A stretch of 10,755 bases of DNA from contig CAMWLD010000044.1 in assembly GCA_947175005.1 (NCBI GenBank), positions 1-10,755 of the forward strand. The letters are read 5' to 3'. The notes beneath the pieces were generated by a model that saw only the letters and a program-made list of their open reading frames with translations, did no database searches and was not told the origin of the DNA. This DNA comes from an uncultured Ruminococcus sp. (GTDB lineage: Bacteria; Bacillota; Clostridia; Oscillospirales; Ruminococcaceae). Made by a program: the position numbers and the translations under genes. Below are positions 1 to 9,970 of this stretch, piece after piece. How positions within the stretch are numbered: the first letter of the stretch is position 1; every line of letters begins with the position of its first letter.

Positions 1-458
1 GAAACCCAGCCCTGTTATTAGCCTGAAACTTAAAAATCGTCGAAAATTTTCGTCATTTCGACTAATGCAGTATGTCTGCAAATTGCTGAAATATTATAAT
101 ATTTTTATTTATTTTGACGAGCCGAAAATTTTCTCAGCACAAAGTTAAAATTTTCAGCACACGAAAAAACGCCCCGTGTGCCAAAAAATGTGCCGGAAAT
201 TTTGCCTCATGTGACGTCTCCCCTTATGCTCTTGCCCCTCAAATTTTTACAAAAACATCAGCTTTTTATCTTGATACTATTGTATATTTTGTTTGAGTAC
301 ATATGGCATTGAGTGTGTTTTGTTAAAATTTAGTATAAATCAAAAAGGGAGTGCAAAGGAAACTGCTGAAATGCATAAAATTTTGGTCGGGTTACTTATT
401 AACCATATTGAATTTGGCGTTCAACTATGTTTAAGACATGACAAAAAAATATAAGTGA
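1..458. other. AT-rich stretch without a confident gene
   Basis: No reading frame here has a convincing start. The stretch is AT-rich and holds short repeated words: the 12-bp palindrome CGAAAATTTTCG near 43-54, and two copies of AAAATTTTC followed by CAGCACA at about 123-161. The only open frame of any length (114-296) starts at TTG without a ribosome binding site and reads as low-complexity translation. A 27-codon frame at 371-454 is preceded by AAAGGA but has no other support. I see no RNA gene. Confidence 0.5.
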
Positions 459-487
459 TTGATAAAAACCGGCAAAAATGTTATAAT
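459..487 (+). promoter_or_regulatory. Sigma-A type promoter
   Basis: TTGATA (459-464) and a perfect TATAAT (482-487) are separated by 17 bases, an almost ideal vegetative promoter. Transcription would start near 494. The only things downstream before the hairpin at 604-634 are a 17-codon reading frame and non-coding sequence, so the product would be an RNA of about 140-150 bases. Confidence 0.6.
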
Positions 488-543
488 GTTAAAAGCTTAT
501 AAACTGCGAAATACGGCAAAATTTATTGCACCGGGAGTTTTTT

Positions 544-597
544 ATGAATACGGGATTTTCACCCCCAGTGCATTTTAATAAAACAATCAAATTATGA
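544..597 (+). CDS. Possible 17-residue peptide
   Basis: ATG at 544 follows a GGGAG ribosome-binding-like sequence with a 6-base spacer. It encodes MNTGFSPPVHFNKTIKL, then TGA at 595-597. The frame sits inside the short transcript predicted from the promoter at 459-487 and ends just before the hairpin at 604-634. No family is recognised. It has no signal sequence or cysteine, so it does not look like a classical Agr autoinducer peptide. It could equally be a chance frame within a small RNA. Confidence 0.2.
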   Translation: MNTGFSPPVHFNKTIKL

Positions 598-636
598 AAA
601 AAGAGCCGACAAAGCGGCTTTGCGTTTGTCGGCTTT
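597..636 (-). terminator. Rho-independent terminator of the 177-residue gene
   Basis: A 10-bp perfect stem, AGCCGACAAA (604-613) with TTTGTCGGCT (625-634), closes an 11-base loop. Read on the minus strand it is followed by C and six Ts, a good U-tract 30 bases after the stop of the 666-1199 gene. On the plus strand the tail is only TTT before GG, so it may also stop, less efficiently, the short transcript from 459-487. Confidence 0.85.
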
Positions 637-665
637 GGAATGCGTTGTAAGGCGATAGAAATTTA

Positions 666-1199
666 TCAGCCCTTAACGTCCATTACAGCAGCCTGCGGCT
701 GTTCAAGGGGCTGCGTCTTTGCGCTGCTCGAATATAGAACGGTAACAGCGTCCCGAACAAGCATACCGACCTCGCCCGACTGCATCTGCTCGGTGATTGC
801 AGCCTTGCCGCTGTCGCTGATATCAACGCTGTCTTTTGCTTTCCTGCCGGCGTCAGCTGCATTTGCGGCTTCGGCAACCTCGACAGCAGACTTTTCGGCA
901 CCGCCGAGAGCCTGTTCACGCTCCACCTTGTTCTTCCGACGAGCTTTCGCAATAGCCTGCTCACGTTCGATTTCCTGCTGTTTGCGGGCTTCTCTTGTTT
1001 CCTTAACGGTTTCCTCGCCGAGTTTTTCTGCGTCCTTTTCGGCATTTTCACCAAGCTCCGCAGCATAACCCATAGCACGCTTCATAGTTTCCGTGTCGCC
1101 GCGTCTTTCCGCTTCCTTGAAAACTCTCATAGGAGTATTAACCAGATTTATATTGGCCGACGCTCCCATTAATGCTTTCATACTGCCTGCTTGCATCAT
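666..1199 (-). CDS. Charged helical protein, conserved hypothetical
   Basis: A 177-residue protein that is almost entirely Ala/Glu/Lys/Arg-rich helix: residues about 22-120 are strongly charged and should form a long helix or coiled coil, followed by a VDISDSGKAAI stretch near 125-135. There is no signal peptide or membrane segment. The start is the ATG at 1199, because GGAGGT lies 7 bases upstream (1207-1212); the frame is open 11 codons further up but without a binding site. From memory, the N-terminus (SMKALMGAS...NTPM..FKEAERRGD) and the VDIS..GKA end match a widespread, uncharacterised clostridial family; I cannot confirm this. It lies 119 bases downstream of the sensor kinase in the same orientation, with its own TATAAT box, so it is a plausible target of that system. 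Confidence 0.85.
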   Translation of the reverse strand: MMQAGSMKALMGASANINLVNTPMRVFKEAERRGDTETMKRAMGYAAELGENAEKDAEKLGEETVKETREARKQQEIEREQAIAKARRKNKVEREQALGGAEKSAVEVAEAANAADAGRKAKDSVDISDSGKAAITEQMQSGEVGMLVRDAVTVLYSSSAKTQPLEQPQAAVMDVKG

Positions 1200-1257
1200 A
1201 CTGATGACCTCCTTTTTAATTTTGCGGAACAATCCTTGTTCTCATATATCTTATCGG

Positions 1258-1320
1258 ATTATACATCACGGATTTTTATAAAAATTACATAAAATGCTCT
1301 TTTCATGTAACAAACGGTTT
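1258..1320 (-). promoter_or_regulatory. Promoter and candidate operator of the 177-residue gene
   Basis: On the minus strand a perfect TATAAT occurs at 1258-1263, but no good -35 hexamer lies 17 bases upstream, which suggests an activator-dependent promoter. The upstream stretch carries, in minus-strand order, ACCGTT (part of the kinase end), TTTGTTACA (1306-1314), AGCATTTT (1291-1298) and AAAAATCCGT (1268-1277). The last three words also occur together before the response regulator gene. ACCGTT resembles the half-sites bound by LytTR domains. Binding by the neighbouring regulator is inference. Confidence 0.5.
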
Positions 1321-2593
1321 ACCTTGCCAGCGGAAGAAGAATGGAGATCTCAAAACAGCCGCCGGTTGTCCGTATTTCCATAATGCCCTTGCCTTTCTCC
1401 ACGGTCTTTCGCACATTCATAAGTCCCGTACCGTAGTTTTGCACATCAAATCTTTCGGGCAGCTCTGCCGCCGAATTTTTTACATTGATAACAAGATAAT
1501 TTTTCACCGCTTCCGTGCGCACGCTCACAAATTGCTCGTCCTTCGCTTCCTCGGCAGCTTTAATAGCATTATCGAGAATATTTCCGAAGATAACGCAAAG
1601 ATCATATTCATCAGCCGCAAGCGGTTGTTTTATGTTCATATCGCAAGAAAATTTTATGCTCTTATGGGCCGCTGTCTGCCGCTTTATGTTCATAAACGCG
1701 TTGATAATAGAATTGCCCGTGTCTATTGCATTATTTTCAATAAGTCCCTCCGTGCAGAGCTTTGAGAGATAATCCGACAGCTTTTCCCATTCGTTCCGGT
1801 CGGCAAGCGCTGACAGGCTTATAAGGTGATTTTTCATATCGTGCCGCACGTTTACTTGATCTCTGAACTGTTCGGCCATTGATCTGTAATACCCGATCTC
1901 CTTTTTGAGAATATCTTCCGACAGATCATAGCCGAACAGCTTATTCAGTCCGAACATCAGCACGACGCATATCGTCATGCAAAGCAGTGAAAGAATTACG
2001 ACCTCCATATGCGTGAAGATCTGGTCGTAAAATGTGTTTTCACTCCCGTGAGATACCATTACCACACCTTTTGTTATACCGTATACACATATGTCGGTCA
2101 GGATCATCAACAACCCCGACGATATGAACAGCATTCTACTGCCCTTCAGAAATGCCCCCTCCGAGATTTTTGTTTTTGAAAATAAAATGCAGGCGATAAG
2201 AGCGGCGGCTATCCACGAAATGCCGCCGGTAATATACAGAATAACATCGCTTCCCTGCCAATGAATAACGCAGGCTCCGAGCATTTCATCTATGCCGTTC
2301 CAAGCAAATTCAAGCACCGCTGTAAATACGGTAAGCATTCCAAGCTTTTCGCGTTTTTTTCCTTTGAACAAAACAAACATAAAGCCGATAAGAGCAGCTT
2401 GTCTTAACAATGAGCTTATCAGATAATTTCCCGTATCAAGAAGAAGCAAAACACAAAATACGGCAAAGAATGCAGCGGTTTTGGGCATAGTATACCGTGC
2501 TTTTGCAAAATATATTCCGGCTGTCTTTATCGAACTTGTAAAGCACACAGCAGAGACGATCATCACATAAAGCGGTCTGTAAACAAATTCCAT
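1319..2593 (-). CDS. AgrC-like sensor histidine kinase (HPK10 family)
   Basis: A 424-residue membrane kinase. Residues about 8-220 contain roughly six hydrophobic segments (for example 41-58, 65-76, 122-138, 153-172, 198-216), the usual peptide-sensing half of AgrC/ComD-type kinases. The linker leads to VRHDMKNHL (249-257) with phospho-acceptor His251; the D-x-K-N-H context is diagnostic of the HPK10 family. The GHKL ATPase follows: N-box GNILDNAIKAAEE (337-349) and G-box YGTGLMNVRK (387-396). Length and order are normal and nothing is missing. It starts one base inside the stop of the response regulator (TAATG), so the two are translationally coupled; GGGGG upstream serves as binding site. 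No AgrB-like peptidase or AgrD-like precursor is visible nearby, so the signal is unknown. Confidence 0.93.
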   Translation of the reverse strand: MEFVYRPLYVMIVSAVCFTSSIKTAGIYFAKARYTMPKTAAFFAVFCVLLLLDTGNYLISSLLRQAALIGFMFVLFKGKKREKLGMLTVFTAVLEFAWNGIDEMLGACVIHWQGSDVILYITGGISWIAAALIACILFSKTKISEGAFLKGSRMLFISSGLLMILTDICVYGITKGVVMVSHGSENTFYDQIFTHMEVVILSLLCMTICVVLMFGLNKLFGYDLSEDILKKEIGYYRSMAEQFRDQVNVRHDMKNHLISLSALADRNEWEKLSDYLSKLCTEGLIENNAIDTGNSIINAFMNIKRQTAAHKSIKFSCDMNIKQPLAADEYDLCVIFGNILDNAIKAAEEAKDEQFVSVRTEAVKNYLVINVKNSAAELPERFDVQNYGTGLMNVRKTVEKGKGIMEIRTTGGCFEISILLPLAR

Positions 2594-3312
2594 TACAAAA
2601 TGCCCCCTTTCATCTTCATATAAGAAATAATTTCCTTTTGGAATATCTTCGCGCGTTTTCTTGCAAGAAAAACGGTATCTCCGTTTTCCATAACTATTTC
2701 GGCTTTATCAAAGCGCGAAACATATTCCAGATTCAGAAGAAAGGATTTGTGACATCTGAAAAAATGCTTGTCCGAAAGCGTTTGCTCCAAATCGCCGATC
2801 TGTTTGTATGTTTCAAGTACGCCGCTGTTACAATGTATTTTTACCGTTCTGCCGACAGACTCGATATAGAATATATCCTTTAACAGAATTTTTTTGATCT
2901 GGTGTTCGGAGGAAATTATAAGAAAATCCTCATTATTGCAAGCCGTTACCTTTACAACAGCTTTTTTCAGCACGTTTTTCAGTTTGTCCTCATCAACGGG
3001 TTTCAGCAGGAAATGAAAGGCTTCAACATCATATGCTTCATAAACATATTCTTCAGCAGACGTAACGAAAACAATAATACTTTCACATCCGTTCTCCCGC
3101 ATTTGCCCCGCAAGCTCCATACCGTTTATTCCGGGCATTTTTATATCCAGGAATACAATATCGAAGCTCTCAACGCTTTTCAGCAGCTCTTGTCCGTCAA
3201 AAAAGCTTTTCAAGGAGAACTCTGTGTCTGACCCCTTCAGTATATTTTTGATCTGTACCGCAAGCCCGGCACATTCTATGGGCATATCATCACATACCGC
3301 TATTGACAACAA
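2593..3312 (-). CDS. LytTR-family response regulator (AgrA-like)
   Basis: Receiver domain at about residues 1-118: acidic pair D8-D9, phospho-acceptor D56 in FLDIKMPG, T84 and K104 all present. A LytTR DNA-binding domain follows at about 134-232, with the typical FFRCHKSFLLNLEYV core. It is the partner of the kinase encoded one base downstream and should bind DNA when phosphorylated. Start: the frame can begin at GTG 3321, but AGAGAGG directly abuts that codon; the same binding site is about 8 bases from TTG 3312, giving MLSIAVCDD, which fits receiver N-termini better. TTG 3309 is another option. A strong promoter at 3416-3445 and a candidate operator at 3381-3403 lie upstream. Confidence 0.9.
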   Translation of the reverse strand: MLSIAVCDDMPIECAGLAVQIKNILKGSDTEFSLKSFFDGQELLKSVESFDIVFLDIKMPGINGMELAGQMRENGCESIIVFVTSAEEYVYEAYDVEAFHFLLKPVDEDKLKNVLKKAVVKVTACNNEDFLIISSEHQIKKILLKDIFYIESVGRTVKIHCNSGVLETYKQIGDLEQTLSDKHFFRCHKSFLLNLEYVSRFDKAEIVMENGDTVFLARKRAKIFQKEIISYMKMKGGIL

Positions 3313-3380
3313 TTCAAACACCCTCTCTATATGTATTTCGGTATTAAATATGCGTATCTTTTGTAAAATGTCATAAGTGG

Positions 3381-3403
3381 ACGGATTTTTGTAACAAAAT
3401 GCT
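3381..3403 (-). promoter_or_regulatory. Candidate operator in the response-regulator leader
   Basis: This 23-base stretch reads on the minus strand AGCATTTTGTTACAAAAATCCGT overlapped as three words: AGCATTTT, TTTGTTACA and AAAAATCCGT. All three recur, spread over about 47 bases, upstream of the -10 box of the 177-residue gene (1268-1314). Here the site lies downstream of the likely transcription start, a position that suits repression or autoregulation. The binding protein is inferred, not shown. Confidence 0.45.
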
Positions 3404-3415
3404 TTCTATGCCTTT

Positions 3416-3445
3416 ATTATATCACTTTTAAGGAAGAGATGTCAA
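3416..3445 (-). promoter_or_regulatory. Near-consensus promoter of the two-component operon
   Basis: On the minus strand TTGACA (3440-3445) and TATAAT (3416-3421) are separated by 18 bases. Both hexamers are perfect. Transcription would begin near 3409, giving a leader of about 95 bases before the regulator start. Confidence 0.8.
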
Positions 3446-3451
3446 TGCGGG

Positions 3452-3538
3452 AAGCTCAAACTGTATCCGGACGCAGAACGGAAATACTGCTATGCTAAAG
3501 ACCGTCTTGACGGAGAGAAGCTGTTTGAAGTTCGCATA
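3452..3538 (+). pseudogene. Possible coding remnant
   Basis: Plus-strand frame 3452-3538 translates without stops into a protein-like string beginning KLKLYPDAERKYCYAKD and ending LDGEKLFEVRIK, mixed in composition and rich in charged and aromatic residues, unlike the shadow frames nearby. It has no start codon with a binding site and runs into the terminator hairpin at 3541-3565. It may be the tail of a decayed gene. I do not recognise the family, and chance translation is possible. Confidence 0.25.
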
Positions 3539-3566
3539 AAAAGCCGCACTCCCCCGGTGCGGCTTT
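3538..3566 (-). terminator. Rho-independent terminator after the amidase fragment
   Basis: Perfect 9-bp stem AAGCCGCAC (3541-3549) with GTGCGGCTT (3557-3565) and a 7-base loop. Read on the minus strand it is followed by further Ts (from the run of As before 3541), 5 bases after the stop of the amidase-like frame. It separates the middle transcript from the two-component operon. Confidence 0.85.
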
Positions 3567-3570
3567 CTCA

Positions 3571-3807
3571 TCAGATATGTACCTCTTGTAAAACCCTTTC
3601 TTTAAACTTCCTCCACCCCTCCAGTTCCCCCTCATCATGGCACCACATGGCGGGACACAGCTTTCCCGTCACATGGTGGTGCATTATCACGTGATCCGAA
3701 TCAATGCCGTACTTCTCCATAAGCATTTTCACAAGCTCCGCCGTCAGATCAAGCTCGGGATCGGTATAAACCGGTCGAAGAACATTCTCATACAGGCAGC
3801 GGCCCAA
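3571..3807 (-). pseudogene. C-terminal fragment of an N-acetylmuramoyl-L-alanine amidase (Amidase_2)
   Basis: The 78 residues match the last third of T7-lysozyme-type amidases, which cut the lactyl-amide bond between muramic acid and the stem peptide. The signature is HHHVTGKLCP: H43, K49 and C51 have the same spacing as the zinc His, catalytic Lys and zinc Cys of T7 lysozyme (H122, K128, C130). A W..FK.RV ending follows, as in the family. The N-terminal half, with the first zinc histidine, is absent, so it cannot be an active enzyme alone. The frame is open only to 3834. It could be translated from TTG 3807, which has AAGGA 8 bases upstream and overlaps the previous gene by 20 bases; otherwise it is a relic left by a recombination event. 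Confidence 0.7.
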
Positions 3808-4504
3808 CCGGCTTTTCCTTGTATCCGCCGAGCATTACCGCCCTCATGGGACGTTCCAGCTTCATGTAATACCCCGTTCCTGAGCTGTGACCTTCCAGAA
3901 CATAAGTATTATGCTCAATGCACAGCGGCAGAAGATACACATAGCCGCCTTTCGGGACAGTGCCGGAGGCTGTAGCGCCCATAAGCACATGCGCACCCTG
4001 AAGAAAATATCCGTCTCCGGGTGTTCCGCCGTGGGTACATTCAAAAATAAATTCCAGGCTGCCGTCACTGTGATATATAGTATCTCGCTCGGCACAGCAA
4101 ATATCGGCATCGTACACTTTAACTTCCCTCCCGGCTTTCCTGCACGCCTCGGCATGAGCGGCATACGCCTTTTTTATCAGCTTTATCCATGAAAGCTTGA
4201 ATTTTAAATATGCGGGAAAATCCGGATCGTCGTACTGTATATCACCGCTGCTCCATTGTACATTGGCAAAGCAGGTCCCCGCAGGGAACTCATTAGTCAG
4301 TCCAACATAAGTCGACCCCACCGGCATAATAATATGCTCCCCGCCGTACTCCCCTTTCGGATGCCAAAGGCTGTGGAAAACATACCCGCCGCCGTCCTTG
4401 TCCTTTTCGTAAACCACTCTGCACTCGTCCCATTCCTCCGCTGTCAGTCCAAGCTCCATTGCCTGCTCCGTCATAGGCGCATTTTCACAATATAATGCCT
4501 CCAT
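3788..4504 (-). CDS. Unrecognised protein with a possible metal-binding C-terminus
   Basis: A 238-residue cytoplasmic-type protein with no signal peptide or membrane segment. The start at 4504 is clear: AAGGAGG precedes ATG by 6 bases. Visible parts are an aromatic/Gly-rich first 100 residues, a basic amphipathic helix at about 101-125, a Cys-Cys pair (136-137), then QGAHV (169-173) and LLPLCIEHN (191-199). The combination GAHV ... hydrophobic-P-x-C-x-x-H-N recalls, from memory, small bacterial proteins with an HNH- or zinc-ribbon-like site using His172, Cys195 and His198; this is inference. Its end overlaps the amidase fragment by 20 bases. Two copies of the 16-bp palindrome lie 61-114 bases upstream of the start. 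Function unknown. Confidence 0.75.
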   Translation of the reverse strand: MEALYCENAPMTEQAMELGLTAEEWDECRVVYEKDKDGGGYVFHSLWHPKGEYGGEHIIMPVGSTYVGLTNEFPAGTCFANVQWSSGDIQYDDPDFPAYLKFKLSWIKLIKKAYAAHAEACRKAGREVKVYDADICCAERDTIYHSDGSLEFIFECTHGGTPGDGYFLQGAHVLMGATASGTVPKGGYVYLLPLCIEHNTYVLEGHSSGTGYYMKLERPMRAVMLGGYKEKPVGPLPV

Positions 4505-4564
4505 ATTTTTCCTCCTTACATCGGCGTTTGCCGACCCGTAAAATTTATTTTATCATACTTGTTA

Positions 4565-4580
4565 TATGTGTATACACATA
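4565..4580. repeat. 16-bp palindrome, copy 1 (perfect)
   Basis: TATGTGTATACACATA, perfectly self-complementary and strictly alternating pyrimidine-purine. It is followed by CACACAC, the same extension seen at copy 8 (9911). It lies 61 bases upstream of the 238-residue gene. Confidence 0.9.
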
Positions 4581-4602
4581 CACACACAATATATGCACAC
4601 TG

Positions 4603-4618
4603 TATATGTATACACATA
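4603..4618. repeat. 16-bp palindrome, copy 2 (one mismatch)
   Basis: TATATGTATACACATA, differing from the consensus at one left-arm base. Its centre is 38 bases from that of copy 1, and it lies 11 bases from the stop of the 886-residue gene. Confidence 0.8.
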
Positions 4619-4628
4619 CCATATAAGC

Positions 4629-7289
4629 TTAAACGCTTACACTTTCCTCTTTCTTTTTCATCTTCTCTTTCTTTGCCTCCAGCATTTTCTTGTAATCCTC
4701 CACAAACTTGGAAATAGAAACATAACCCGCCTGCGAATCCCCGGAGGTATCGTCAAGATAAGAGCTTTTGTCCGCCGAGGTTGCTTCAATGTAGTAGCCG
4801 ATTATCTGTGGAGTGTCAAATTTCAGTGTAACGGTGTTCCCCGTGGACGAGGAATGGACCCCCGAAGATGAGGACGAGGAAGATGAGCTTTTCGAGCCGC
4901 TGAAGAATAGGAAGCCGCCGCCCGAGGAAGCGTGTTCCTCCACCGCCTGGGAAAACTCCGAGGAAACAGAGCTGCTGGAAACCATTTTAATTGTAATATC
5001 CCTTGCAATGACCATTGCCACGGGGTAGCATGGGAAAATATAATTATTTGTCGCCATATCTTTCAGCCGTTCATCTGTTATGCTCGTATAGGGCGTGTCG
5101 GGACTCGGCGCAATTTTAAGGCTGGTCACATTGAACATATCCTTTGTGAGAGCGAAAACCCCCGGGTTGAACCATTCACGTTCAATGCCCACCTTGGCAA
5201 CGTTCATACCTATCTGAATAGAAGTGTCCGACTGCGATGTGAAATCGCTGAATGCCGATGAAGAGCTGCTCTGCTCCGAGTGATACCCGCAGAAAAGGAA
5301 GGAGAATCCGCCGGTGGAGGCGGAAGCGTCGGCACGGGAGGAAGTGGACTTATCCAAAGTGGAGGCGGAGGCGGTGATGACCACCTGCGTGTAGCCCGAA
5401 GGGACAACAGAGGGAGCAACAGCGTCCTTGCCCGTGTCCGGGTCGGTGACATTTCCGTTCTCGTCGGGGACGGGGCGGGACAGGCTCGACAGCTGGATCT
5501 GCGCCCGAATGGTGTCTATCTGCGAATCAATATCCGTAAGCTGCGCACGCAGCGGCGAAAGCATTTCTTTCAGACCCGCCAGATTTTTCACCTCGATCGC
5601 CTTTGCGGAAACGTCCGCCAGCTTGCCGCAGGCAGATATGTAATCCTGCTGGGACTTAGAGGCGACATTCGTCTGCTCGGAAAGCGATTTTATAAGATCC
5701 TCGGGGGTTTTGCCGTCTGCAAGCTCCGTCCCCTCCGCCAGCCTTTTTATGATGTTCAGAGGAACGCCGCCCTCGAAAAGGGGAAGAATGTCCATTACAG
5801 CGCTGAACGCCTTGACAACACCGTTGCCGTAGGTTGTTATAAGCGCATTTCTTGCGTCGTCAACCTCTTTCTTTGCCGCCTCTGCTTCCGCCTTGCACTT
5901 TTCCACCTCGCCGTCCTGCGGTATCAGAGAGGAAATTTCCTCAATGCGCGCGTTCAGCGCAATGCGGCGTGAAGAAAGGCTTTGCAGCTCCATTGCCAGC
6001 ACGTCCGGGTCTTTTAAAAGATCAATGGGAGTAAAGGAAGTCCCCAGCAGCTCGAACCAGCCTGTGGGATTCAGCTTCACGGGATATACATAGCCGCCGT
6101 CGGGAGTGAGCTTGCCCGTGTTGTTGAGAGTCTCCCTTGCCTGCTGAAGCTCCGCACCCGAGCCGCTGTCGAGAATGCCCTCGAGAATTTTCATGTCATT
6201 GTCGGTAAACACGGCAATAAGCTCGGAAAATTTCTCGTTAATGGCTGTGAGACGGCTTTTTGCAACCGACTCATACCATTCGAGATATGCGTCGTTATAC
6301 TTTATATTGCTCTCGGCGTCCTCGCCGGTGTATATCTGCCGCAGCCGCTTTTTTTCCGCATTCTGCTCGTCCGCCCATTCCTTTTCCGCCTGCACCCACT
6401 CGTCATAGAGCTTGAAAAAAACCTCCTGGAGAGTGTAGGCCTTGCCGTCCCCGAATTCATACGGGTAATCGGTCATAAGCAGGTCGCGTATCTGATTTTT
6501 CGCCGCCGCAACCTTGGCATTGAGCTTCGGGGTCAGCATATCAAGGGCGCTGCGGTACTGATAAGGCAGCGTGAGTCCGTTGTCTGCCCCGGTCATGCGG
6601 CAGGGGTCGAAAAGCTTGTTTGCCAGTCTCGATTCGTTGGCCTCCACCGTAGGGCCTTTCGGGGCGTTGTTCTTGTAATCATAGGTAAAATCCTCGGCGG
6701 AAAGCGCCTGCCCGGGAATAGTGAGGCAGAGGAACTGATTGGGATTTGAGCCGCCCAGCACGGAATTTATCTGCTCATAGACCTGATCCACAAAGGCGCT
6801 GCCGCTTGGCTCTGCTCCCACGGCTGCCCTTGGCTCGTCTCCGCCTCCCTCTGTCAGACCGCCGCCGTAAGCCGCCATGGGAACTGCTCTGATAGTGGCG
6901 GACGCGTTTGCGGTGAGCTTGTTTGCGGCGGGATTGTTTGCGGCGGGATTGTTCGCAATGGGCTCATTCGCCGCTAAAACTTCCATGGAAATACTTTTCA
7001 CTGCCGCACCTGTCTCCGCGGGCACTTCCCTGCCGTATGTTTCGGACTGCTCCGATGCTGCCTGTGATGTTTGCGTTGCCCCCATTGCCCCCGCTGCCTG
7101 TGTGGGCTGCGCCGTCGGTGCTGCCGCCGCAGACTGTTCACTCCCCCGGTCACTTGACGCTGTCTGCCCGGTAAGGTCATTCACCGCTTCGCTGCTTTCG
7201 GTGACTGTGCGGGTCTCTTTTGTCACAAACGTTTCCTCGCTGCTTCCTGTCACTGTTATGTGACTGCCTGTGTGTTTGTCCTTTGCCAT
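4629..7289 (-). CDS. Large unrecognised protein with coiled coil and duplicated Ser/Gly-Gly-Phe module
   Basis: An 886-residue protein starting at ATG 7289 with AAGGAGG 8 bases upstream. No signal peptide or hydrophobic membrane helix is seen. Residues 1-165 are low-complexity Ala/Thr/Ser/Gln/Glu with a short Ala-Asn-rich repeat (107-128). Residues 166-450 are mixed, with Trp/Tyr-rich charged helices (285-345). Residues 430-600 are coiled-coil-like. Residues 630-840 hold two similar units: a beta-type strand, a Ser-rich spacer, then STGGFSFLFCG (658-668) or SSGGGFLFFSG (788-798), a serine run, and another strand ending near REWFNPG or GYYIEA. The end is a Lys/Glu helix. The duplicated units look like beta-hairpins with hydrophobic tips, as in membrane-inserting proteins, but this is inference. 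From memory, similar Ser/GGF C-termini occur in uncharacterised fungal and bacterial proteins. Flanked by the palindromes on both sides. No function can be assigned. Confidence 0.85.
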   Translation of the reverse strand: MAKDKHTGSHITVTGSSEETFVTKETRTVTESSEAVNDLTGQTASSDRGSEQSAAAAPTAQPTQAAGAMGATQTSQAASEQSETYGREVPAETGAAVKSISMEVLAANEPIANNPAANNPAANKLTANASATIRAVPMAAYGGGLTEGGGDEPRAAVGAEPSGSAFVDQVYEQINSVLGGSNPNQFLCLTIPGQALSAEDFTYDYKNNAPKGPTVEANESRLANKLFDPCRMTGADNGLTLPYQYRSALDMLTPKLNAKVAAAKNQIRDLLMTDYPYEFGDGKAYTLQEVFFKLYDEWVQAEKEWADEQNAEKKRLRQIYTGEDAESNIKYNDAYLEWYESVAKSRLTAINEKFSELIAVFTDNDMKILEGILDSGSGAELQQARETLNNTGKLTPDGGYVYPVKLNPTGWFELLGTSFTPIDLLKDPDVLAMELQSLSSRRIALNARIEEISSLIPQDGEVEKCKAEAEAAKKEVDDARNALITTYGNGVVKAFSAVMDILPLFEGGVPLNIIKRLAEGTELADGKTPEDLIKSLSEQTNVASKSQQDYISACGKLADVSAKAIEVKNLAGLKEMLSPLRAQLTDIDSQIDTIRAQIQLSSLSRPVPDENGNVTDPDTGKDAVAPSVVPSGYTQVVITASASTLDKSTSSRADASASTGGFSFLFCGYHSEQSSSSSAFSDFTSQSDTSIQIGMNVAKVGIEREWFNPGVFALTKDMFNVTSLKIAPSPDTPYTSITDERLKDMATNNYIFPCYPVAMVIARDITIKMVSSSSVSSEFSQAVEEHASSGGGFLFFSGSKSSSSSSSSSGVHSSSTGNTVTLKFDTPQIIGYYIEATSADKSSYLDDTSGDSQAGYVSISKFVEDYKKMLEAKKEKMKKKEESVSV
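6908..6970. repeat. 15-bp tandem repeat inside the 886-residue gene
   Basis: Unit TTGTTTGCGGCGGGA occurs twice in perfect tandem near 6919-6948, followed by diverged units TTGTTCGCAATGGGC and TCATTCGCCGC. In the protein it yields the Asn-Pro-Ala-Ala-Asn pentapeptide repeat at about residues 107-128. As the unit is a multiple of three, copy number can vary without breaking the frame. Confidence 0.75.
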
Positions 7290-7358
7290 GTTTTTTTCCT
7301 CCTTAAATTAGCCTTGAATTTCCGCAGGATTTTCCGCAGATTTTTACCCCTTTGCCAT

Positions 7359-7389
7359 ATTTTACCACGGCTGCGGCAAATTTCGACAA
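7359..7389 (-). promoter_or_regulatory. Possible promoter of the 886-residue gene
   Basis: On the minus strand an extended -10 TGGTAAAAT (7359-7367) lies 19 bases from TTGTCG (7384-7389). The spacing is long, but the TGn extension compensates. The -35 overlaps TGTCGAAATT (7379-7388), an inverted copy of the 10-bp repeat at 7440-7499, so a repeat-binding protein would cover this promoter. Confidence 0.35.
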
Positions 7390-7439
7390 AGCGTTTGTGA
7401 ACTTAAAGTAATATTTTGATAAATTTTAGTATACGATTT

Positions 7440-7499
7440 TGTCGTAATTTGTTGATATTTGTCGGAATATAAAGAATTATGTCGGGATATGTCGAACAG
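7440..7499 (+). repeat. Phased 10-bp iterons (TGTCG repeats)
   Basis: Six consecutive 10-base units: TGTCGTAATT, TGTTGATATT, TGTCGGAATA, TAAAGAATTA (degenerate), TGTCGGGATA, TGTCGAACAG. Five of six start TGTCG or TGTTG at exact 10-base steps, so the sites would face one side of the helix. Such arrays are typical of replication or partition protein binding sites and of cooperative operators. An inverted single unit lies at 7379-7388. They sit between the start of the 886-residue gene and a possible divergent small gene at 7523. Confidence 0.7.
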
Positions 7500-7522
7500 C
7501 GGGAAAACGGAGGTGAACGGAA

Positions 7523-7600
7523 ATGCAAAAAACAGTCCGCCGAAAAATCAAAGCACGTTATTCAAAAAAGCAGCTTTTATGTGTATACACATACACATAA
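7523..7600 (+). CDS. Possible 25-residue basic peptide
   Basis: ATG 7523 has GGAGGT (7509-7514) 8 bases upstream, as good a binding site as those of the confident genes. The peptide begins MQKTVRRKIKARYSKKQLL and ends in a Cys/Tyr/Thr tail encoded by the 16-bp palindrome (7578-7593) and its CACATAA extension, which supplies the stop. It is strongly basic in its first 17 residues. No family is recognised. An overlapping frame from 7459 is less likely because it lacks a binding site. Confidence 0.35.
   Translation: MQKTVRRKIKARYSKKQLLCVYTYT
7578..7593. repeat. 16-bp palindrome, copy 3 (perfect)
   Basis: TATGTGTATACACATA followed by CACATAA. It lies between the iterons and the LRR-gene terminator and overlaps the end of the possible 25-residue frame. 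Confidence 0.9.
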
Positions 7601-7621
7601 TACTGTTAAAAAACTCCTGCA

Positions 7622-7651
7622 AACAAAAAAACAAGCTGCACAAGCAGCTTG
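7622..7651 (-). terminator. Rho-independent terminator of the LRR gene
   Basis: Perfect 8-bp stem CAAGCTGC (7632-7639) with GCAGCTTG (7644-7651) and a 4-base loop. On the minus strand it is followed by seven Ts, G and more Ts, 24 bases after the stop of the 7676-8716 gene. Confidence 0.9.
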
Positions 7652-7675
7652 AAAAATGATCTATTCATTAAAATA

Positions 7676-8716
7676 TCACCCCTGCACCGCAATATCCTCC
7701 GACATAGTGCCCTCAACGGTAAAGGTTTCGGGAAAATACCCCTCGTCCTCCTTCTTGTCGTAATTTGCAGCCGGGATAACTGCTATGGGCTTCACCGCAA
7801 AGATATATTCACTGCCCTGCTTCAGAGTAGTAAACTTGCATGACGTGCCTTTTGTTGTTTTAAGCAGTTTGTATTCGCCGTTACTCAATTTTTGATAAAC
7901 TTCATAGTACGAGGCATTCGGGATTTTATCCCATTTAATAGTTCTGTTCTCTGCTTTCGGCACAGGCTGTTCATATGTAATCAGCAGCGGCACATCCACC
8001 GACTTGTCGAAAGCACTTCTGTCTATCTTAACATTAAAGCTTGGCAGAGTGATCTCTTTTAAATTATATGACGACCAAAAAGCATATTCTTCAATATACA
8101 TCTCCGAATTACCCGGCAAAAAGATCACTTCGGATAATTTATCACAGCCTACAAACGCTGCATAATCTATTTTATTGGTGCTTTCGGGAATAATTACTTC
8201 CTTTAAATTATCCGAATACGCAATAGCTAAACAGCCTATTACCTCCGTTCCCTCGGGAATGCTGTAGCTTTCTCTTGGATTATTTTGGGAATATGACATT
8301 AAGGTTTTTCCGTCTTTGCCGAATATAACATTATCAATGCATTCCATATATTTATTTTTGGGATTTAAATCAAATTCGGACGCAACACAGCTTCCTTCAA
8401 TTTCAACCACCGGTTTTCCGTTTATGGAGTCCGGAACAAGTTTTGTTACCGGATGATCAGGATAATACCGTATACCGGCATCATCCACTATCCCCACTTC
8501 CGTAGGCGGACGGTTTCCGTCAAAAAGAATTATATTATCTCTGTTTTTCTCATTGGTTATCCAAGACCATTCATAAGATATTTCGTCATATTCATAATAA
8601 TCCTTCTTGCTGTCTATGATGTATTTATTGTCCCTTAACGCATACACAGGGAACGAAAACGCCTGTACTGCCAATATTACCGACAGCAGCATAACTGCCG
8701 TTTTGATCTTTTTCAT
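7676..8716 (-). CDS. Secreted BspA-type leucine-rich-repeat protein with FN3-like domain
   Basis: A 346-residue exported protein. The start is ATG 8716 (MKKIKTAVML) with GAGGGGAG upstream; the frame is open six codons further, but only from a TTG that would destroy the binding site. The signal peptide spans about residues 1-26: basic start, hydrophobic core, cleavage likely after PVYA. Residues about 95-240 are LRR_5/BspA-type repeats (EGTEVIGCLAIAYSDNLKEVIIPES, then KIDYAAFVGCDKLSEVIF and EEYAFWSSYNLKEITLP patterns). Residues about 255-335 resemble a fibronectin type III fold (IKWDKIPNASYYEVYQ, then SEYIFAVKPI). There is no LPxTG or dockerin, so it is probably released or loosely held. BspA-like proteins bind host or substrate proteins; the ligand here is unknown. 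It is AT-richer than its neighbours. Two palindromes lie 45-85 bases upstream. Confidence 0.88.
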   Translation of the reverse strand: MKKIKTAVMLLSVILAVQAFSFPVYALRDNKYIIDSKKDYYEYDEISYEWSWITNEKNRDNIILFDGNRPPTEVGIVDDAGIRYYPDHPVTKLVPDSINGKPVVEIEGSCVASEFDLNPKNKYMECIDNVIFGKDGKTLMSYSQNNPRESYSIPEGTEVIGCLAIAYSDNLKEVIIPESTNKIDYAAFVGCDKLSEVIFLPGNSEMYIEEYAFWSSYNLKEITLPSFNVKIDRSAFDKSVDVPLLITYEQPVPKAENRTIKWDKIPNASYYEVYQKLSNGEYKLLKTTKGTSCKFTTLKQGSEYIFAVKPIAVIPAANYDKKEDEGYFPETFTVEGTMSEDIAVQG

Positions 8717-8760
8717 TTGCCTTACTCCCCTCAAATTATTATTGTAAACGCCCTAAAAAT

Positions 8761-8776
8761 TATGTGTATACACACA
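8761..8776. repeat. 16-bp palindrome, copy 4 (one mismatch)
   Basis: TATGTGTATACACACA, one base off the consensus in the right arm. It lies 45 bases upstream of the LRR gene start, close to where a -35 element for the weak TACAAT box would sit. Confidence 0.85.
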
Positions 8777-8785
8777 AACCGAATT

Positions 8786-8801
8786 TATGTGTATACACAT
8801 A
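8786..8801. repeat. 16-bp palindrome, copy 5 (perfect)
   Basis: TATGTGTATACACATA, centre 25 bases from copy 4 and 7 bases past the stop of the RHH gene. No hairpin terminator with a U-tract is seen between the RHH and LRR genes, so read-through between them is possible. Confidence 0.9.
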
Positions 8802-8808
8802 TAATATC

Positions 8809-9294
8809 TCACATTTCCCTGTCCCCGCAGCTTTTCTCCAGCACCTGATTAACATATTCGTTAAAGGACATATCCATTGCCGCCGCTTTCCGGGCAACTC
8901 TCATATGTAAGGACGGCGGCACAAGCAGCTGAACACGCTTGCTCTTGCTTTCCCCCTGCCGCCTTGGGGCAACAGGGTGCCCGGACCGCACGACCGTTTC
9001 CGGCTTGTTCGACCCGGCGGCAGAATCAACAGCCGACGGCTGCGCGGTCATATCCGCCTTGACCTCACCGCCGACAGACAATGCAGTCTGCGCAGATTCT
9101 ACAGGCTGCGCGGACTGCGCCGCCTGACGTTCCCTTTCGGGAGCTTTTTCCTTTTTCGCCCCGCGGCCTTTCTTGCCGGCGGACTTTGCAGAGCTTACCT
9201 CTTCGGCGGCTTTTTTTTCGGGGACTTCTTCCCGGGTTGCGCTTATAAACTGTAATGCAGGGTTACCCCTGTCAATAAAACTTTTCTTTGCCAT
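8809..9294 (-). CDS. Ribbon-helix-helix DNA-binding protein, probable ParA partner
   Basis: A 161-residue protein. The start is ATG 9294 (MAKKSFIDRG) with AAAGGAG upstream; the frame open to 9330 lacks a site. Residues about 118-153 form an Arc/MetJ-type fold: strand KRVQLLVPP (119-127), helix SLHMRVARKAAAM, turn, then SFNEYVNQVLE (143-153). Dimers of this fold put paired strands in the major groove. Residues 20-115 are an unstructured Ala/Lys/Glu/Ser linker; the N-terminal NPALQFIS (11-18) resembles, from memory, short proteins encoded with ParA in Firmicutes mobile elements, where the N-terminus would touch the ATPase. It follows parA in the same orientation but 675 bases away. It is the best candidate in the window to bind the palindromes or the iterons; this is inference. 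Confidence 0.82.
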   Translation of the reverse strand: MAKKSFIDRGNPALQFISATREEVPEKKAAEEVSSAKSAGKKGRGAKKEKAPERERQAAQSAQPVESAQTALSVGGEVKADMTAQPSAVDSAAGSNKPETVVRSGHPVAPRRQGESKSKRVQLLVPPSLHMRVARKAAAMDMSFNEYVNQVLEKSCGDREM

Positions 9295-9396
9295 TATTTT
9301 AATCTCCTTTGCTTTAGTCTTATATATCAAAACTTAGGGAATACCCGAAACTTTCAAACTTACCTCCCGCCGGTCATATATCCCGAACTTTCTTTT

Positions 9397-9412
9397 TATG
9401 TGTATACACATA
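9397..9412. repeat. 16-bp palindrome, copy 6 (perfect)
   Basis: TATGTGTATACACATA, 102 bases upstream of the RHH gene start and in the divergent region shared with the 58-residue gene. Confidence 0.9.
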
Positions 9413-9432
9413 ACTCCGCACATTAACCTATC

Positions 9433-9449
9433 ATTAATTGTCAATTAAT
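9433..9449. repeat. 17-bp palindrome between copies 6 and 7
   Basis: ATTAATTG, one central base, CAATTAAT: perfect 8-bp arms, a sequence distinct from the 16-bp family. On the minus strand it contains TTGACA, but no good -10 lies 16-18 bases further on. It could be an operator for the RHH gene. Confidence 0.55.
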
Positions 9450-9454
9450 CCCGA

Positions 9455-9470
9455 TATGTGTATACACATA
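9455..9470. repeat. 16-bp palindrome, copy 7 (perfect)
   Basis: TATGTGTATACACATA, centre 58 bases from copy 6 and 54 bases upstream of the -35 of the 58-residue gene. Confidence 0.9.
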
Positions 9471-9481
9471 TTTTGCCGGTT

Positions 9482-9510
9482 TTTTTAAGGAACAGTCTTG
9501 TTCCCTAAAA
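9482..9510. repeat. Imperfect inverted repeat upstream of the 58-residue gene
   Basis: GGAACA (9489-9494) and TGTTCC (9499-9504) pair around a 4-base loop, and the flanks TTTTTAA and CTAAAAA extend the arms to about 13 bp with one mismatch. There is no U-tract beyond the arms on either strand, so an operator or structured leader fits better than a terminator. It ends 14 bases before the -35 box of the plus-strand promoter. Confidence 0.5.
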
Positions 9511-9524
9511 ACAAACTTTAACAC

Positions 9525-9553
9525 TTGACAAACATTTCAAAATCGTTTAAAAT
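9525..9553 (+). promoter_or_regulatory. Near-consensus promoter of the 58-residue gene
   Basis: TTGACA (9525-9530), a 17-base spacer and TAAAAT (9548-9553). Start of transcription would be near 9560, about 30 bases before the ATG at 9591. Confidence 0.8.
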
Positions 9554-9590
9554 ATAGATGTCAACTATAATTACAGAATAGGGTGAAAAT

Positions 9591-9767
9591 ATGTCAAGCG
9601 AACTTGGAATAAAATCACAGCTCATAAGTGATTATCAGCGGTTCAGGCGTATCCGCAAAACCGCCGAAAAAGAAGGGGCAGTGGAAACCGTAAAAATGAT
9701 CGATGAAGAGATCGCATTCATCAAATTAAAATTGCAGCCGCTGGAGCTTCCGGATATCAGCCATTAG
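9591..9767 (+). CDS. Small helical protein, 58 residues, unrecognised
   Basis: ATG 9591 follows AGGGTG with a short spacer and a strong promoter at 9525-9553; TAG ends it at 9767. The protein begins MSSELGIKSQLISDYQRF, continues with basic RRIRKTAEKEG, then an acidic/hydrophobic helix (VKMIDEEIAFIKLKL) and a Pro-containing tail. It has no membrane segment. Two helices with a basic first half would suit a small DNA- or protein-binding regulator, but no family is recognised. It is the only well-supported plus-strand gene and lies between parA and the RHH gene, facing parA, with palindromes on both sides. Confidence 0.75.
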   Translation: MSSELGIKSQLISDYQRFRRIRKTAEKEGAVETVKMIDEEIAFIKLKLQPLELPDISH

Positions 9768-9797
9768 AAGCAATACGCAGGAGGCAAGAATATTTTA

Positions 9798-9898
9798 GGT
9801 AACCTCTAAAAACCTTGTTTTTCAAATCTGCGATTGTGAATTACAGCCGTTTCAAGAGATTGGTTTTGGGTGAAACACAGGGGTTTTTACAGGTCACC
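9798..9898. mobile_element. MITE-like element with 17-bp inverted ends
   Basis: The left end GGTAACCTCTAAAAACC (9798-9814) and the right end GGTTTTTACAGGTCACC (9882-9898) are inverted copies matching at 15 of 17 bases. The element is 101 bases long, has no reading frame, and is flanked on both sides by TTTA (9794-9797 and 9899-9902), which looks like a 4-bp target duplication. Inside, GTTTCA and TGAAAC can form a further hairpin. It would be mobilised by a transposase encoded elsewhere. The parent family is not identified. Confidence 0.55.
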
Positions 9899-9910
9899 TT
9901 TATTTCTTGT

Positions 9911-9926
9911 TATGTGTATACACATA
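9911..9926. repeat. 16-bp palindrome, copy 8 (perfect)
   Basis: TATGTGTATACACATA followed by CACACAC, the same extension as copy 1. It sits between the MITE-like element and the stop of parA. Confidence 0.9.
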
Positions 9927-9946
9927 CACACACTTACAGCTCTTAC

Positions 9947-9970
9947 TTCTTGCCTCCGACCTCTTGCCTC
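9947..9970. repeat. Direct repeat just after parA
   Basis: TTCTTGCCTC (9947-9956) and CTCTTGCCTC (9961-9970) repeat at a 14-base step, the second touching the parA stop. An inverted perfect copy, GAGGCAAGAA, is at 9781-9790, on the other side of the MITE-like element and palindrome 8. Meaning unknown. Confidence 0.4.

Follow-up and report, generated by a model that had tools for sequence, protein, structure and literature searches.

In a 10,755-nucleotide stretch of DNA from an uncultured gut Ruminococcus sp. (NCBI GenBank assembly GCA_947175005.1, contig CAMWLD010000044.1; hereafter the window, which is the whole of contig C44), eight copies of a 16-bp palindrome, TATGTGTATACACATA, lie in the gaps around neighboring genes for a ribbon-helix-helix (RHH) protein and a ParA-type ATPase. 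The RHH protein (8809-9294) is the likely binder of these palindromes; together with the adjacent ParA it would constitute a type Ib-like partition module with a scattered centromere. In the mechanism we propose, RHH dimers would bind two ATGTGTAT half-sites via their beta-strands, the RHH protein would serve as the centromere-binding partner of ParA, and the centromere would be dispersed over numerous sites in the surrounding gaps rather than forming a single compact array. RHH-loaded DNA would then engage nucleoid-bound ParA, and through this engagement the region would be segregated or positioned. An additional role in autoregulation is probable for the sites that adjoin the RHH and parA genes. 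A preliminary description of this DNA had suggested the RHH protein as a candidate binder and had weighed a centromere-like site against a silencing site and a dispersed repeat, and the genome comparisons reported below favor its centromere-like reading.

Six of the eight copies are perfect and two carry one mismatch, all at exactly the positions given in the preliminary description, and 200 dinucleotide shuffles of the window yield a mean of only 0.02 matches. It had also been claimed that no gap from 4505 to 9969 is without a copy and that no copy lies in a long gene; the former holds for all gaps between the larger genes, and we find no overlap with any gene in a hand-made list. In a mechanical list of open reading frames (ORFs), the sites at 7578, 4565 and 9911 fall within frames of 66, 101 and 76 amino acids, respectively, which we take to be chance frames. 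Positions 1-4504 of the window contain no copy of the 16-mer, and the rule that every gap has a site fails outside the window, where contig C91 of the same genome has a copy in four of seven gaps. The CACA extension noted earlier does follow the sites at 4565, 7578 and 9911, but it is not part of a common unit: across the 15 copies in the genome the most frequent base at any flanking position reaches at most 0.57, and conservation stops at the edge of the 16-mer. At 8761/8786, where two palindromes stand next to each other and therefore fold into a strong hairpin, there is also one terminator-like match. An RNA element or terminator was considered and rejected, since the window has no Rfam match and a single site folds weakly.

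The preliminary description had proposed a genome-wide count of the 16-mer, with an even chromosomal spread as the outcome that would speak against it. We found no such spread. The assembly comprises 2,468,886 bases in 394 contigs and is 83% complete, and all 15 copies detected with at most one mismatch (10 perfect, 5 with one mismatch) reside on three contigs, namely C44 (8), C91 (4) and C120 (3), while the reversed pattern, used as a control, has no copy at this threshold. Allowing up to three mismatches gives 21 places, and decayed copies elsewhere in the genome were rejected because the six additional places, at two or three mismatches, do not exceed the nine of the reversed control. Within the genus, the exact 16-mer occurs in two of 20 genomes, our own (10 copies) and the congener G007 (19), and these are also the only carriers among 100 relatives. 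At up to one mismatch G007 has 53 copies, distributed over its contigs C287 (42), C22 (8) and C234 (3). The first 17.2 kb of C287 are free of sites and the last 18 kb contain all 42, with parA and the RHH gene inside the site-dense part; some G007 copies have long common flanks and repeat with spacings of 46 and 117 bp. By a hand gene list that omits small ORFs consisting of repeat sequence, all 57 sites on C44 (8), C91 (4), C120 (3) and C287 (42) are intergenic; with mechanical calling, such ORFs take in four of the 15 sites of the own genome and many of those on C287.

The palindrome is found repeatedly in company with a parA-RHH pair. Relatives of the RHH protein are present in three of the 20 genus genomes (G000, G007 and G011), the same three that possess a close ParA, which is 69-70% identical to the window ParA compared to at most 46% for other ParA relatives in the genus. 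The exact 16-mer is found in two of these three genomes and is absent from the remaining 17; the third, G011, has no perfect palindrome but contains 10 copies of TGTGTAT against 0.07 expected. A search for another perfect palindrome near the paralogous ParA genes of the genus returned no comparable family in the scanned loci.

Features of both proteins were compared with those of known partition systems. Whole ParA relatives exist in G007 and G011, and the 252-residue G011 protein, which starts MHIYAVINQKGGVGKTT, is without an N-terminal DNA-binding domain, as is typical of type Ib; this check was made on the G011 protein, the window parA being cut before that point. The gene beside parA encodes an RHH/HicB protein and not the helix-turn-helix ParB of chromosomal ParABS systems. 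RHH relatives likewise adjoin parA in G011, CANQWR, CADCOZ and the Streptococcus plasmid p29887, although several score below the Pfam cut-off. In G007, the RHH gene and parA are separated by a PIN-like gene and its small partner (L047:11332-12041). The 161 residues that the preliminary description assigned to the window RHH protein remain the best reading of 8809-9294 on the minus strand; the ORF list starts the gene at an upstream TTG, giving 173 residues. Across seven aligned RHH proteins the N-terminal KKxF...A...I residues are invariant and may contact ParA. A structure model of the RHH protein has a mean predicted local distance difference test score (pLDDT) of 61 and is confident only in two C-terminal helices; its best Foldseek matches are RHH proteins, none of which reaches E 0.001. 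The single RHH sequence has no match among solved structures, whereas an RHH profile retrieves CopG and Arc at E 0.03-0.04 only, and a stronger profile match to 8etq (E 4e-7) contains no stretch that passes on its own.

Further loci were collected with the 16-mer, with ParA and with an RHH alignment. A scan of 257 billion bases of genomes returned 52 stretches with the exact 16-mer, and by our own estimate (4^16) about 60 chance places are expected, so that single copies carry no signal and only multi-copy stretches are informative. The exact 16-mer, used alone as query, retrieved 71 loci (19 viral, 52 genomic). Eight of them have more than one copy at up to two mismatches, and their four sources all carry parA and an RHH gene: five loci belong to G007, while CANQWR, Clostridia bacterium MS499-75 and IMG/VR 3300031867_007398 contribute one each, the latter two being new sources found via this search. 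In the viral set, L041 is the only one of the 19 loci with a second copy at up to two mismatches. CANQWR has palindromes directly before parA and directly after the RHH gene, CADCOZ has half-site arrays, in MS499-75 arrays with a 14-bp step flank the parA-RHH pair on both sides, and the 12.4-kb IMG/VR sequence has sites at several separate places, one of them within the primase frame. In relatives the site is extended by ATGTGT hexads or in the form of repeats of about 13-14 bp, and a repeated site beside the par genes, a type Ib feature, is found in them. The motif was also seen inside the primase-helicase frame on small plasmid-like contigs (L203:814-855, L195:1795-1814, L199:1300-1319 and L041:5141).

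Searching 297 family genomes with ParA gave 22 loci, which with L136, L074, L089 and two plasmids made 27. TGTGTAT is enriched in seven of them (L136, L074, L089, L143, L145, L146 and L147), where the gene after parA encodes an RHH protein wherever it can be read (L147 is cut there). Loci L148-L166 have only 0-2 copies of TGTGTAT each, and in most non-enriched loci parA is followed by another protein, which in most of the motif-free family loci we take to be ComFB-like. The RHH alignment, run against 394 genomes of the order, added three genomes with four places.

RHH proteins such as Arc contact DNA through residues of their beta-strand, and by analogy the strand residues R.Q.L are expected to do so here. 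Two of the four places from the order-wide search, G358 (R.Q.L) and G511-C70 (R.Q.I, with ATGTGTATACACAT), have the motif beside parA; G501 and G511-C79, both R.N.L, have 0 and 1 TGTGTA in the locus. Two Lactobacillus plasmids (H.S.L) and Megamonas (K.A.A) have no TGTGTA beside parA and display other repeats instead. In IMG/VR, a ParA search found 80 loci, one of them duplicating L041 and therefore removed; of the remaining 79, six encode R.Q.L proteins, three have other RHH strands and 70 have no detected RHH protein. TGTGTAT occurs at 6.7 times expectation in the six R.Q.L loci and at 0.73 times in the 73 others (p 3.4e-5), and the corresponding values for TGTGTA are 2.0 and 0.57 (p 1e-4).

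Several observations weigh against the proposed recognition and partition role. In a strict test of TGTGTA within at most 800 bp of flank (17 cassettes, enrichment cut-off p<1e-3), 7 of 11 R.Q.x cassettes were enriched against 1 of 6 others, a difference that is not significant (Fisher p=0.13) and for which several of the cassettes had helped define the motif; the cassettes are also related by descent. The R.Q.x cassettes that fell short were those of Arsenophonus (0.002), Streptococcus p29887 (p 0.1 in this window) and two Moraxella plasmids (0.4), both of which encode R.Q.L and lack the repeated site beside par genes; moreover, the one enriched cassette among the six others, G188, is R.N.L and has the motif, and two other R.N.L cassettes do not. 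The Lawsonia plasmid, whose ParA is 56% identical, has 6 TGTGTAT against 3.5 expected and is not clearly enriched. As 70 of the 73 comparison loci in IMG/VR have no detected RHH protein, that test mainly separates presence from absence of such a protein; three of four control hexamers showed no difference but TGTCTA did (p 0.009), two of the six positives (L199 and L202) resemble p29887, and near flanks are clearly enriched in only one of the six, L200, the others having the motif in other gaps or within the primase frame. Finally, full ParA activation in pSM19035 needs at least four contiguous repeats (PMC9499535), and by this analogy isolated palindromes call for caution unless the sites cooperate over distance.

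The window features are collected in Table 1. Contig C91 carries dTDP-rhamnose (rml), glycosyltransferase and ABC-exporter genes, and C120 carries a toprim/DnaB-like gene with three sites in front. In G011 a single 5.5-kb contig joins primase-helicase, parA, the RHH gene and the glycosyltransferase gene that opens the rml cluster, and C22 of G007 holds both primase-helicase and rml; because these two contigs link their genes, C44, C91 and C120, which are not joined in the assembly, probably form one neighborhood. On the contigs of G007 and G011, both fragmented assemblies, parA-RHH or primase is joined to glmS or rml. The rml stretches of G002, G016 and G012 have no adjoining parA and no TGTGTATACACA, and in G002 and G012 the genes upstream of rml look chromosomal.

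Table 1. Palindromic sites and partition-type genes of the window.
Feature	Position	Strand	Remarks
Site 1	4565..4580	.	perfect palindrome
Site 2	4603..4618	.	one mismatch
Site 3	7578..7593	.	perfect
Site 4	8761..8776	.	one mismatch
Site 5	8786..8801	.	perfect; directly past RHH gene end
Site 6	9397..9412	.	perfect; upstream of RHH gene
Site 7	9455..9470	.	perfect; upstream of RHH gene
Site 8	9911..9926	.	perfect; directly past parA end
RHH protein, proposed centromere-binding protein (ParB analogue)	8809..9294	-	Pfam HicB, 26.2 bits (cut-off 21)
ParA-type ATPase, 5' end and P-loop beyond contig end	9970..10755	-	Pfam AAA_31, 126 bits

Beyond these features, parA-RHH or primase genes repeatedly adjoin surface-glycan genes (L016, L048, L136, L074 and L055), which in the genus are rml genes, in CANQWR LicD-like and glycosyltransferase genes, and in MS499-75 a gene for a Wzt-like ATPase. 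The gaps of rml clusters (L048:7760-17220 and those of L016) hold other short repeats of the GCCTCTTGC and ATTAATTA types, which implies that these gaps change fast. In the site-free part of the window, positions 1319-3321 encode in tandem a membrane protein resembling histidine kinases and a response regulator of the LytTR type, agr-like by eye. Positions 4629-7289 encode an 886-residue protein with no Pfam match and serine-rich stretches near its C-terminus, and C120 (L017) encodes two DUF2589 proteins.

An alternative that we regard as unlikely gives the RHH protein, bound at the sites, chiefly the role of a regional repressor or silencer, akin to a plasmid master regulator, with partition secondary or lost. 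Most sites in the own genome do lie in gaps upstream of a gene, gaps of the rml cluster contain sites, those at 8761, 9397 and 4565 overlap weak promoter-like matches, and RHH partition proteins are described as regulators as well (PMC9499535). However, no strong promoter was noted at the sites within the rml cluster, the best promoter match of the C120 primase (5200-5228) lies about 50 bp downstream of the closest site, and site 8 is located between the end of parA and the end of a 58-residue ORF, if that is a gene. The rml gaps of G007 are also without a site despite orthologous rml genes, so that regulation of rml via the sites would not be conserved.

Still less probable are two explanations that dispense with the RHH protein. 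The sites could be iterons or targets of another plasmid-like backbone protein, such as a Rep-like initiator or a recombinase; a Rep-like gene is present on one site-bearing contig of G007 and a Rep fragment in G011, and since relatives carry primase, integrase and Rep genes alongside parA-RHH, co-occurrence alone cannot separate this explanation from ours. It is at odds with the tight clustering of sites at the parA-RHH pair in several genomes and with a Lactobacillus plasmid that has helicase, integrase and parA-RHH, with differing contact residues, and lacks the motif; nor was a Rep relative found in the own assembly (83% complete). Marginally more remote is a selfish or passively amplified repeat, either of the repetitive extragenic palindrome (REP) or miniature inverted-repeat transposable element (MITE) type or microsatellite-derived, with no binding protein. 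Although the motif resembles (TG)n(CA)n and the long common flanks of some G007 copies and their 46- and 117-bp spacings would fit such an origin, the own genome shows no conserved sequence beyond the 16-mer, as a REP or MITE would, its copies are near-perfect with decayed ones not above control, and the motif recurs with parA-RHH in distant genomes.

Returning to the partition module, one tentative extension is that a plasmid centromere was captured by a bacterial chromosome, or gave rise to a chromid, and expanded into a regional field of 15-53 perfect or near-perfect palindromes extending to the gaps of adjacent core operons such as rml, through which the RHH protein would position or fold an entire genome domain; a literature search on Ruminococcus chromids found no useful case. 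If the field is chromosomal, it would represent an RHH-based domain organizer beside surface-polysaccharide genes.

In layout, the sites, most likely docking sites, are more scattered than the compact arrays usual for plasmid-type partition proteins, although precedents for dispersal exist. KorB of RK2, a partition protein that also regulates, has roughly a dozen operators scattered across that plasmid, but it is of the helix-turn-helix ParB type and recognizes a different sequence. The plasmid p29887 and its relatives combine a DnaB-like helicase gene and an integrase with a ParA about 55% identical, Rep and an RHH protein. Pairs of TGTGTAT with a 14-bp distance stand before parA, before the integrase and within the helicase gene of p29887, which, unlike the present field, is a 10.8-kb plasmid with few half-site pairs. 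RHH partition proteins are not known to slide along DNA in the manner of cytidine triphosphate (CTP)-driven ParB, and a scattered field of discrete sites might be one way for them to load sufficient DNA for ParA. The relatives form a natural series from hexads through 13-14-bp arrays to single palindromes, and from few to 53 sites, together with predicted contact residues for recognition. The delta/omega system of pSM19035 likewise combines ParA with a small RHH protein and has sites at several places overlapping promoters, but its six sites each consist of 7-10 contiguous heptads WATCACW (PMC9499535), whereas ours are mostly isolated palindromes of another sequence.

The string tgtgtatacaca was not found in any paper of an open-licence library, and the nearest case of scattered RHH sites in the literature searches is SegAB, an archaeal chromosome segregation system in which the ParA-type SegA is adjoined by the RHH protein SegB (PMC12284271). 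The likeness of the proteins is one of description. The SegAB motif is 13 bp long and of different sequence, about 83% of its sites lie within genes, the sites are spread across the whole chromosome, and SegB peaks are narrow (PMC12284271). SegAB shows that segregation can be served by palindromes that are scattered yet clustered close to the genes (PMC12284271); such clustering is seen in G007, but without copies elsewhere in its genome. Like SegAB, the present system sets a ParA-type ATPase beside an RHH protein amid scattered palindromes and, if its field is chromosomal or part of a chromid, it might be a bacterial counterpart of archaeal SegAB.

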